64,000 nt of DNA from Timema cristinae (taxonomy: Eukaryota; Arthropoda; Insecta; Phasmatodea; Timematidae): the NCBI GenBank assembly GCA_039000515.1, contig JBCFYV010011172.1:70009941-70073940 (forward strand). The letters run 5' to 3'. The notes beneath the pieces are model-generated. The model did not search any database and was not told where the DNA came from. It saw nothing but the letters and a program-made list of their open reading frames with translations. The number at the start of each line of letters is the position of its first letter. The first letter of the stretch is position 1. Positions 56,201 to 57,566 of this stretch are shown here, one piece after another. The translations under genes and the position numbers were made by a program.

Positions 56201-57566
56201 TGGTGTCTATATGGCGTGTGATGAGCACATGCAAGTTAATGTGATAGCTCCCAATAGAAGAACGCATATATGGTATGGCGTGTGTCATGGCATCATGCAC
56301 CCGAGACTAGGCTCTGACATGTTTAAACTTATGTAGAGGATGCATGTCGACTGCCCCATACCCCCTCCTCCCCTCCTCTTCAGTAGTGTGCATCTTATGA
56401 GGAGTTCATGTTGATGACTAGAATCATGTCCGTAGGCATGTGACATGTGGCTTGTTGATGGCAAAGACGCCACATCAATTGACTTTGTGCCATATCTTCA
56501 TCACATGCGTGACACACCTATGCCATGCACTACATTCACGCTGCGCCACTGCATCGCATTACACTCTGCCTAAGGTAGTGGAATGTGTAGTGCTGATGAA
56601 TACTTACCTAGGAGTGAAACAGCCATACTACTGATCATCTGTCATTCTGATGAATACTTACAAAAGAGTGAAACAGCCATACTGCTGATCATATGTACTG
56701 GTAGTTCTGATGAATACTTGGCTAAGAGTGAAACAATCATACTGCTGATCATCTGTCATTCTGATGAATACTTGGCTAAGAGTGAAACAGTCATACTGCT
56801 GATCATCTGTCATTCTGATGAATACTTACAAAAGAGTGAAACAGCCATACTGCTGATCATATATATTGTTAGTTCTGGTAAATACTTGGCTAAGAGTGAA
56901 ACAGCCATACGGCTGATCATATATATTGTTAGTTCTGATAAATACTTGGCTAAGAGTGAAACAGTCATACTGCTGATCATCTGTCATTCTGATGAATACT
57001 TGGCTAAGAGTGAAACAGTCATACTGCTGATCATCTGTCATTCTGATGAATACTTACAAAAGAGTGAAACAGCCTTACTGCTGATCATCTTTAATTCTGA
57101 TGAATACTTACAAAAGAGTGAAACAGCCATACTGCTGATCATATGTTTTTCTAATGAATACTTACATAAGAGTGAAACAGTACTGTGTCAGTATCCAGGA
57201 AACTTAGAATATGATTGACGAGATCAAATTTGTTTAGATGGTTTGGGTTGTCTATGGCTGTGCTGCATAAAGCTGACTGGAAAAATGGAACAGACACAAT
57301 TACTCATCACAAATAATTAAAAATTATTATTTACCTTATATATTTATATTTTGTTGGCTAGTTAAATAATCTTACCAAATGCATTGAACTTTGTTTGATA
57401 TGAGTTTTTTGCGCATCCCATTCTGCTGCCACAGCCAGAGCTAATGGTTCACTCTCCACCACAAACAAGTTTCCATAAGGTGTTTTTAGCTTGCGTTGAT
57501 CAAGGGTGATTTCATACTTGCCATCACTGTACAGAGCATTTGTCTTGCGATAAAACCGTTTAAGAG
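41138..57566 (-). CDS. ATPAF2: ATP synthase F1 assembly factor 2 (ATP12), C-terminal 245 residues in 5 exons
   Basis: In transcript order the exons are 57566-57376, 57276-57166, 50306-50126, 45434-45319 and 41275-41138; all borders are GT-AG and the phases join without a gap. The protein starts in the KRFY segment conserved at about residue 50 of the family, contains LDQRKLKTPYGNLFVVESEP, FLDTDTVLFHSY, WQPILDWFCERYNVQIE, KAVFLSRLEEEFQ and HWGRVEWAHELSQQDL. ATP12 is a matrix chaperone that binds the F1 alpha subunit before alpha-beta assembly. The first coding exon, with targeting peptide, was not found in 57567-64000. Introns hold many transposons and, after the second exon here, a tandem array built from its own splice junction. 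Confidence 0.93.
42205..43045 (+). pseudogene. Penelope-like retroelement, N-terminal RT region, decayed
   Basis: The open frame 42212-42439 reads LKLKLKKTLTNLWFNHQCIK. Later frames show FYPRYLNLSKLKLN, then LHKSYKFNLKQSSLIQKI, then near 42953 KADKGNTIVLMDKSNYISKT. The ordered words (LxxLxxxCxxN.IxPK; RYxNLS; G.KFNL; ADKGNTxVxxDKxxY) are the start of Penelope-like RT proteins. Frameshifts separate them and the palm with YxDD is missing. It lies in the last intron of ATPAF2. Confidence 0.65.
43050..44018. other. Unclassified intronic stretch with a GC-richer block
   Basis: A block at 43577-43945 is distinctly richer in GC and has open frames on both strands, but shows no recognisable domain. 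It runs into the 70-bp minisatellite and then a polyadenylation-like AATAAA near 44590, so it may be part of a retroelement. Confidence 0.35.
44019..44480. repeat. 70-bp minisatellite, about 6.5 copies
   Basis: Units start near TATGCAAAGTCTTTTGCT, pass through GAAAGATATTTAAATGTTCA and end near TCCTTTTATAAGGAATA. The copies differ at many sites, so the array is old. It is in the last ATPAF2 intron. Confidence 0.8.
45319..45434 (-). CDS. ATPAF2: ATPAF2 exon encoding the SRLEEEFQ segment
   Basis: It reads FSFAVETVKSLILTLCCVD, then KAVFLSRLEEEFQ, between TTTCAG and CAG/GTATCT. The SRLEEE motif is a hallmark of ATP12. Confidence 0.93.
45645..45938 (+). repeat. SINE family A, most complete copy
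   Basis: The head has CACCTTAGCTCAGTTGGTAA (A box) and AGGGTTTGATTCCTGGCA (B box), then a body with GAATATGGGTTTACCCTTTC, GGGCGGAGACTGGATGTTGT and the tail CAGTTATGGATGTAAAGTAA. It is inside the last ATPAF2 intron but one. Confidence 0.87.
46560..48500 (+). pseudogene. PIF/Harbinger transposase relic, split by a solo LTR
   Basis: A decayed N-terminal piece (RRQILIHPIARVYRWKDN near 46635, then FSMLLGAYGELY) precedes the DDE part. From about 47175 the frame gives VLLASADMNGVFISNALG, KSEGGVF, LEKWVESNSFDFPGPRLL and, near 47365, DEAFPSETNLTRPYPKRV. After the LTR the same frame resumes at 48288 with SRGCKSIECTFGMLTIKLRI and RNKSYIIYSVHDRF. DEAF and the VExxFG-like region are Harbinger signatures. 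Stops and small frameshifts make it inactive. Confidence 0.75.
47457..48283. mobile_element. Solo LTR, 827 bp, with 4-bp target duplication
   Basis: The insert begins TGAAGAATTATTGAAATATT and ends AATCAATAACATTACA, i.e. TG...CA. AGAT is duplicated at 47453-47456 and 48284-48287. Removing the insert and one AGAT joins the Harbinger frame exactly (Tyr-Arg-Leu-Ser-Arg). No gag or pol is present. A 26-bp internal direct repeat (GCCCCGTGGTCGAGCACTAA at 47602 and its variant at 47668) is visible. Its end matches 12950-13347. Confidence 0.85.
48501..49268 (+). mobile_element. 0.77-kb terminal-inverted-repeat element, copy 2
   Basis: It is the inverse counterpart of 19361-20121 over its full length. 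Its ends TTCACGATAGGTTTTTACCT (left) and the complement of the right end TTCACGAGCTAAGTTTACCT are inverted repeats continuing through GGATGACAG. It abuts the Harbinger coding remnant on its left and a candidate exon on its right. Confidence 0.72.
49303..49468 (+). CDS. Candidate terminal exon, unidentified gene
   Basis: After acceptor TTTTAATTCAG the frame is open for 54 residues, including YQWDYIIPNKHIKDVEDIYR and LYDLYQFFKNFWDSAKN, then TGA at 49466-49468. AATAAA follows at 49489-49494. Start phase needs two bases from an upstream exon that I could not find. Amphipathic composition and codon-like regularity suggest real coding sequence. Family unknown; a decayed transposon gene is an alternative. 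It overlaps an ATPAF2 intron on the opposite strand. Confidence 0.45.
49489..49494 (+). terminator. Polyadenylation signal after the candidate exon
   Basis: AATAAA lies 21 bases after the stop codon of the 49303 exon. Confidence 0.45.
50126..50306 (-). CDS. ATPAF2: ATPAF2 exon encoding the WQPILDWFCERY segment
   Basis: It starts after CCTAAG at 50307 and reads EETELCKLQAQEWQPILDWF, CERYNVQIECSREITGPHIS and KHLQSYSLWAVHG, ending at CATG/GTAATA. It aligns to the vertebrate RNEWDPIIEWAEKRYGVEI region. Confidence 0.94.
50307..51524. other. ATPAF2 intron, right part
   Basis: AT-rich; no further exon or repeat was recognised. Confidence 0.4.
51525..51636 (+). repeat. SINE family C, 5'-truncated
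   Basis: TTCCCACTCTACCTCTATGC to AATGTATGGGTATAACCCAA matches the 3' part of family C. Confidence 0.6.
51961..52048 (+). CDS. Candidate internal exon, coiled-coil-like, unidentified
   Basis: Between ATTATTTCAG and AAA/GTAAAA the frame reads LFKQQFNDIRIIIESENSLK then DELLKHQLK. It is charged and helical in pattern. Its incoming phase needs two bases. It joins in phase with the candidate exon at 52226. It is antisense to an ATPAF2 intron; no upstream partner was found. Confidence 0.4.
52226..52363 (+). CDS. Candidate terminal exon following 51961-52048
   Basis: The acceptor is CATACCTTCAG. The frame GISGRFQRKLMCRFQKFVSH, LHQKMYSNLITF continues to TAA at 52361-52363 and fits the phase of the previous candidate. 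No polyadenylation signal was seen nearby. Family unknown. Confidence 0.3.
   Translation, partial: GISGRFQRKLMCRFQKFVSHLHQKMYSNLITFNELPICSTIQLYT
52490..52760 (-). pseudogene. Second fragment of the 18690-type transposon protein
   Basis: On the - strand the pieces GCRMSLKINFLHSELGFFPD, NLGVVCDDKVKHFDQDISTM and a GKCYKDC segment have the motif order of the same family as 18690-19150. It has frameshifts and lacks both ends. Confidence 0.6.
53060..53150 (-). repeat. tRNA-like SINE head, separate family
   Basis: On the - strand CCGGCCTCGTGGTATAGTGG is an A-box region and GGGTCAAATTCCTGG a B box. The continuation does not match families A-C. Confidence 0.5.
53722..53905. repeat. Diverged tandem repeat, about 55-bp units
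   Basis: CCATATGACATAGTTTTGTA recurs as CCATAAGGCGTAGTATTGAA, CCATAAGACATGGTTTTGTA and CCGGTAGACATAGTGTTAAG. No coding meaning. Confidence 0.55.
54291..54434 (+). repeat. SINE family B, 5'-truncated insertion with 13-bp target duplication
   Basis: AATGCCAGGCCTCCACCGTG to GGTGCTATTAATAATAATAA is flanked by TAACAGCCTAGAT at 54278-54290 and 54435-54447. It starts at nearly the same body position as the copy at 8898. Confidence 0.92.
54448..55437. other. ATPAF2 intron, AT-rich
   Basis: No exon or repeat recognised. Confidence 0.4.
55438..55725. repeat. Compound microsatellite with perfect palindrome geometry
   Basis: A (CA)n run at 55438-55494 is followed by (CT)n(AT)n(GA)n at 55598-55715. The CT and GA arms flank an AT core, so the block is a long self-complementary palindrome. 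Confidence 0.85.
55862..55975. repeat. Diverged outlying units of the ATPAF2 junction minisatellite
   Basis: CACAAGAGTGAAACAGCCAC (55917-55936) and ACATAAAAGTGAAACAACCA (55861-55880), with TGATCACTTATGTAGTTCTG downstream, match the units of the main array, but with more changes. A SINE A remnant separates them from the array. Confidence 0.65.
56060..56195 (-). repeat. SINE family A fragment
   Basis: On the - strand GTGGGTTTGGTTCCCAGCAT is a B-box region and the following ATTAACGGCCAAGGGCTGGT matches the body of family A. The tail is missing. Confidence 0.6.
56592..57189. repeat. 54/60-bp minisatellite made of the ATPAF2 exon/intron junction
   Basis: Eleven units of 54 or 60 bp, each reading (on +) CTGATGAATACTT, then ACAAAAG or GGCTAAG, then AGTGAAACAG and a variable end (CATCTGTCATT or CATATATATTGTTAGTT). 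On the - strand this is CTGTTTCACTCTT followed by TTGTAAGTATTC, i.e. the last exon bases and donor of the ATPAF2 exon 57276-57166. The unit nearest the exon is the real junction. Units 1, 2, 5, 9, 10 and 11 keep GTAAGT; units 3, 4, 6, 7 and 8 have CCAAGT. All unit lengths are multiples of three, giving a 211-codon + frame that is an artefact. Confidence 0.92.
57166..57276 (-). CDS. ATPAF2: ATPAF2 exon encoding the FLDTDT segment
   Basis: The 37-codon exon begins after TTTTTCCAG and reads ALCSTAIDNPNHLNKFDLVN, HILSFLDTDTVLFHSY, then GTAAGT at 57165. It corresponds to TLCNTSLDNP...FLDTDT of the vertebrate protein and joins both neighbours in phase 0. Its last 15 to 20 bases belong to the minisatellite unit. 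Confidence 0.9.
57376..57566 (-). CDS. ATPAF2: ATPAF2 exon encoding the KRFY/RKLKTP segment
   Basis: After CTCTTTAG it reads LKRFYRKTNALYSDGKYEIT, LDQRKLKTPYGNLFVVESEP and ALAVAAEWDAQKTHIKQSSM, ending ATTTG/GTAAGA. RKLKTP and AVAxEWD are ATP12 signatures. One base from an upstream exon is needed; that exon is not in view. Confidence 0.95.

Follow-up and report, generated by a model that had tools for sequence, protein, structure and literature searches.

The ATPAF2 locus and its tandem array

The minus strand of a 64-kb stretch of the Timema cristinae genome (contig JBCFYV010011172.1, positions 70,009,941 to 70,073,940; hereafter the window) encodes ATPAF2, the ATP12 chaperone, and one of its coding exons ends inside the first unit of a minisatellite that continues into the next intron. 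Gene model and homology place the authentic donor of the exon in this first unit, and several of the units downstream carry intact copies of the donor, here called decoys. The array is probably a near-neutral minisatellite born at the exon/intron junction, with the proximal donor at 57165 mainly used and, at most, low-level mis-splicing.

Five ATPAF2 exons were placed, all on the minus strand: 57566-57376; 57276-57166, the exon before the array; 50306-50126, beginning EETELCKLQ; 45434-45319; and a last exon from 41275, the start that gives the ATP12 reading, to a stop codon near 41138. Joined, with the first coding exon left out, these give a 244-residue protein that matches Pfam ATP12 (E 9.2e-38), and the same protein was reproduced from the window exons. 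The exon before the array has 111 nt, or 37 codons, is in phase 0 at its start and at its end, finishes with DTDTVLFHSY, and is followed by a 6,859-bp intron. A predicted protein from T. californicum is identical to the window protein at 202 of 232 residues and is joined at the true junction, HSY being followed by EETELC. An earlier, sequence-only reading had named the gene ATPAF2 and placed an exon junction at 57166; the Pfam match and the T. californicum model agree with the first assignment, and the join in that model falls at the same place as the second. At the C-terminus of the deposited T. californicum model, the last exon is out of frame relative to the ATP12 reading of the window, which a wrong acceptor in the model perhaps explains.

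Tandem Repeats Finder reports the array at 56593-57180 with a period of 54, 10.6 copies and a score of 720. Described from this single window and read on the minus strand, the main array has 11 units, as had been counted earlier, each of 54 bp except for three of 60 bp (those starting at 56964, 56904 and 56736). In transcript order the units start at 57180, 57126, 57072, 57018, 56964, 56904, 56844, 56790, 56736, 56676 and 56622. Unit 1 (57127-57180) comprises the exon end CTGTTTCACTCTTAT and 39 intron nt in all, with the donor GTAAGT at 57165 and an in-frame TAG, so that the true junction, TCTTAT/GTAAGT, sits within it. The ten downstream units (56584-57126, minus strand) are 54 or 60 bp long, and an insertion interrupts the last of them. 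Identical units occur in two pairs (57072/56844 and 57018/56790), which points to recent exchange and makes variation in the length of the array likely.

The last 15 nt of the exon are the opening part of unit 1. The longest exact word common to exon and array is also 15 nt, against a maximum of 11 and a mean of 7.2 in 500 shuffles of the exon, and the match thus exceeds chance. The 13-mer CTGTTTCACTCTT, allowing two mismatches at most, occurs 15 times in the window compared with 2.57 expected from shuffles. Homology of the exon further 5' than these 15 nt was considered and rejected, the right-anchored alignment not being significant (shuffle fractions 0.15 and 0.07). The earlier description of a unit holding the last 15-20 exon bases together with GTAAGT is therefore correct for the donor, while its exonic part shrinks to about 15 nt.

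The plus strand of the array has an open frame of 214 codons (56574-57218), the units being 54 and 60 bp. As a protein this frame was rejected: none of 7,995 scored candidates matched at E 0.001, and a Pfam DTW match was judged spurious (21.6 bits, below the cut-off of 33.7). Rfam and tRNA searches gave no match. A second tandem array, with a period of 70 bp and 5.7 copies, lies at 44016-44467 in another ATPAF2 intron, more than 800 bp from the nearest placed exon.

Donor copies and their reading frame

Unit 1 has an intact GTAAGT, as do five of the ten downstream main units (57111, 57057, 56829, 56661 and 56607); the other five have GCCAAGT at the donor position. The true donor and the five decoys span 564 bp. 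Pairing with the 5' end of U1 has an energy of -7.3 kcal/mol at the true donor and at four decoys, while decoy 56607, at -12.4 kcal/mol, pairs best among the 416 GT sites from 57600 to 50306. This strongest decoy, TAG/GTAAGTAT (56600-56610 on the minus strand, with the G of its GT at 56607), has full 11-nt complementarity to U1 and a juxtaposed AG/GT. It is one of seven YAGGTRAG sequences in the window, counting both strands, and the sole YAGGTAAGTAT.

Use of an intact decoy would lengthen the exon by 54, 108, 336, 504 or 558 nt, always in frame. For all five, the added codons would start with GTA AGT ATT CAT TAG, and the product would end after VSIH with TAG as the fifth codon. Both the number of intact decoys and the in-frame TAG soon after the junction had been given by the sequence-only reading, and both are borne out by the census.

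Known donor-repeating arrays and rival readings

By its structure, the ATPAF2 array can be placed with the donor-repeating minisatellites of the IFI6 and ABCA7 kind: it has tandem units of more than 10 bp, an authentic donor in the first unit, and a donor consensus kept downstream. A minisatellite giving multiple splice donors was reportedly described in human 6-16/IFI6 by Turri et al. in 1995. According to excerpts of a later source, two downstream repeat units of IFI6 are used as donors and three mRNA species encode isoforms (PMC4526556), whereas the extension in ATPAF2 meets a stop. In the human ABCA7 gene, as described in part of PMC5954066, the variable number tandem repeat (VNTR) of intron 18 begins with the donor of exon 18 and has a 25-bp unit, with alleles of about 12 to 427 units. 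The two arrays are alike in opening with the donor of a coding exon, and in ABCA7 too a donor one unit in gives a damaging reading frame (PMC5954066, in part). They differ in that the ABCA7 repeat has been measured in people, while the ATPAF2 array is an insect one known from sequence alone, with 11 units of 54/60 bp as well as remnants; its unit includes about 15 exonic nt, has a length divisible by 3 and brings a stop early. There is also a likeness to known tandem duplications that span an exon/intron boundary, in which ready splice signals are inherited; here, however, the copies lie within an existing intron and no new intron is shown. The ATPAF2 array appears to add one more example of an accident already known, and not to reveal a novel mechanism. 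Among the titles listed from the open-licence literature, in searches that did not use the gene name, none showed an insect case of a donor-repeating minisatellite; the earlier statement that no case is described in this gene may be true, but the kind itself has already been described in IFI6 and ABCA7.

The rival that survives best, although unlikely, is a switch between alternative donors, in which repeat donors are used at a meaningful level and give truncated ATP12 or nonsense-mediated decay, with the dosage set by the array. The five intact in-frame donors, one with far stronger U1 pairing than the true site, would suit such a switch, as would the repeat units of IFI6 that serve as donors (PMC4526556, in part). 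In ABCA7, where the VNTR starts at the GT of the exon 18 donor, retention of one 25-bp unit was detected as a measured isoform and skipping of exon 19 rose with array length; the same excerpts, however, give unit retention as unchanged by array length, which speaks against a simple effect of copy number on decoy use, and report two frameshift isoforms, one at 14 percent and one at 2 percent, the latter apparently the isoform that retains a unit (PMC5954066).

Gene models from two other species of Timema also bear on this switch. The deposited models of T. genevievae and T. podura run past the donor into the unit and end in VSIHQNNI, and 104 residues of the read-through form of the window are identical in both. 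Such ends would favor decoy use, but both models look fragmentary and the next exon may be missing, the T. podura contig being 8,854 bp against an intron of 6.86 kb in the window. The models appear to derive from the work of PMC8865771, excerpts of which describe Timema assemblies built from short reads; given such assemblies and the short T. podura contig, the models are possibly incomplete. They are taken as evidence for sequence and not for a real isoform. As sequence, they show the intron start to be homologous in the two species. The fifth codon past the junction is Q in both, and the models end four codons beyond the stop of the window; the fifth-codon TAG is probably not common to T. 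genevievae and T. podura.

It is more doubtful still that the array is a helper, with U1 on the downstream donor copies strengthening definition of the true exon or guarding the intron from premature polyadenylation. In PAH, U1 binding in the intron downstream of the natural donor favors inclusion of exon 11 (PMC5933811, in part), and the array packs six GTAAGT sequences into 564 bp. However, one and the same change has removed the site from half of the ten downstream main units, and the donors of both distal units, beyond the insertion, have decayed.

Just as improbable is a division of the array into two classes of splice signal derived from one ancestral junction, namely GTAAGT donor units and TTAGCC acceptor-like units, with both signals in the last unit. 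The TTAGCC change, which five units carry, destroys the donor and, together with the pyrimidine run inherited from the exon, gives a sequence like a 3' splice site. The 6.86-kb intron has 210 YAG sites, of which nine have 10 or more pyrimidines in 12, and six of these nine fall in the array. As a test for acceptors, however, the pyrimidine count was rejected: authentic acceptors have 8 of 12 at 50306 and 10, 10 and 7 at 57566, 57276 and 45434, so real sites are not singled out and the acceptor-likeness of the array is resemblance only. The same holds for a hypothetical cryptic exon of 60 nt (56830-56889, minus strand), which would have a pyrimidine-rich TTAG, CTAAC 40 nt upstream and the intact donor 56829, and which carries an in-frame TAA. 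Unit 56622 reads TAG/GTAAGT, with acceptor and donor juxtaposed as AG/GTAAGT at 56607 behind 10 pyrimidines in 12 nt. This juxtaposition behind a pyrimidine-rich run is like a ratchet point of recursive splicing as outlined in excerpts of PMC8605326; unlike such a point, it is known here from its sequence, in an intron of 6.86 kb, and the preceding unit is without a CTAAC-type branch word. Of five branch words tried over 56580-57180, CTAAC alone occurs, at 56932 and 56872, outside the unit that precedes 56607. If the division into two classes were true, the end of a coding exon could seed poison exons or a ratchet point within an intron via simple tandem duplication, and the composition of the array would tune them.

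Origin of the array and its meaning

The 15 exonic nt of the unit encode LFHSY. Among the 120 matches listed of 573, in which the named entries are insects, the columns aligned to LFHS have L in 115, F in 102, H in 40 and Q in 72, and S in 67, while the column aligned to Y is variable. The chance of obtaining L, F/Y, H/Q and S from four random codons is about 3e-5. In 106 of these 120 matches the protein has the same length over the junction as in the window; 11 are shorter by one residue and three are longer by five. Since LF and H/Q-S are common in other insects, the exon end appears to be old coding sequence and is likely the source of the array, which is the direction that the sequence-only reading had preferred. 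The exon has TAT before the donor, and so does unit 55877, a weak unit and the farthest one, whereas TTT and TAG variants are found mid-array; with the TAT of the exon at both ends, TTT and TAG look derived.

The alternative already raised in that reading, an array that began within the intron, for instance from a dispersed satellite, and captured the exon end later, could draw on the first 39 intron nt belonging to the unit and on the exonic 13-mer being its least variable part (1 of 13 variable columns versus 15 of 41 elsewhere in the ten main units, P 0.08), but it is very improbable, because the exon end encodes residues common to other insects and the window has no dispersed copy below E 0.1. 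Special conservation of the exon-derived 13-mer was also rejected, with P values of 0.08 for the ten main units, 0.63 for the cut unit, and 0.011 and 0.009 for the two distal units, which were anchored on that motif. So was a dispersed repeat family: at E < 0.1 the unit profile returned from the window only the 11 main units and unit 55931. Scans of viral and prokaryote contigs for the unit pattern found none and plasmid blastn gave no match, results with little bearing on insects.

The insertion that splits unit 56622 is 623 bp long (56583-55961, minus strand). Its flanks, CAGCACTACACA and CAGAACTACATA, are 12-bp words at 56595-56584 and 55960-55949 that are identical at 10 of 12 positions. 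When the flanks are joined a unit is recovered: its score with the unit profile is 40.9 bits, whereas the left and right parts taken singly score 31.4 and 5.8. Within the insertion, 56165-56030 is a dispersed repeat with copies at 45690-45822 (plus strand, 73% identical) and 1130-1266 (minus strand, 71% identical). These copies have tRNA-like A-box and B-box words, recognized by eye, and the dispersed repeat is likely a short interspersed element (SINE), although a scan of the insertion itself with simple box patterns found no B box. Beyond the insertion, at 55824-55960 on the minus strand, lie the remainder of the split unit and two distal units, both of them overlooked in the sequence-only reading. 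Unit 55931 is a diverged older unit (profile E 1.6e-5). Unit 55877 is a weak candidate (profile E 0.84), placed by its exact 54-bp spacing and 11 of 13 matches in the core word. Neither keeps GTAAGT, their donors reading GTAGGC and GTAACT. Before the insertion the array held at least 12 units and probably 13. Units 55931 and 55877, as anchored on the 13-mer, have 0 and 2 differences in its 13 positions and 15 and 25 in the other 41. Elsewhere on the minus strand, 59117-60851 carries a pair of long open frames, of 272 and 336 codons, which overlap and by eye are hAT-type transposase-like; they have no Pfam match at E 0.001.

What is directly observed is the anatomy of the array, the frame and its stop, the conserved coding sequence at the exon end, the insertion, and the join in the T. 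californicum model. In the explanation that we consider probable, about 54 bp, consisting of the last 15 exon nt and the donor with the following intron (39 nt together), would have been tandemly duplicated into the intron, and unequal exchange would have amplified the unit to at least 12, probably 13, copies. Two derived unit types, TTTT/GTAAGT and TTAGCCAAGT, would have arisen and spread within the main array, and a SINE-containing element would later have split a distal unit. The spliceosome would still chiefly take the proximal donor at 57165, and any use of a decoy would add in-frame codons that soon reach a stop, a product likely cleared by surveillance.

Several points weigh against this account. 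In pairing with U1, four decoys are level with the true donor and one surpasses it, so decoy silence is not assured. The read-through ends of the T. genevievae and T. podura models could reflect real transcripts. Support for the deep nodes of the unit tree (9-46) is too low to order the duplications. The case for 57165 as the donor used in this animal comes from the gene model of another species, and the order of duplication and near-neutrality are likewise steps beyond the observations.

An interpretation of the downstream copies as decoys is possible. The locus provides a natural test of donor choice: near-identical donors follow the real one, the strongest pairing with U1 is found at the far end of the main array, and an in-frame stop would mark any decoy use. 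Copy number could be compared with splicing fidelity in the Timema material of PMC8865771, excerpts of which name ten genomes as well as RNA libraries and give PRJNA679785 for the RNA-seq. More generally, the ATPAF2 array shows how the end of a coding exon can seed a minisatellite.

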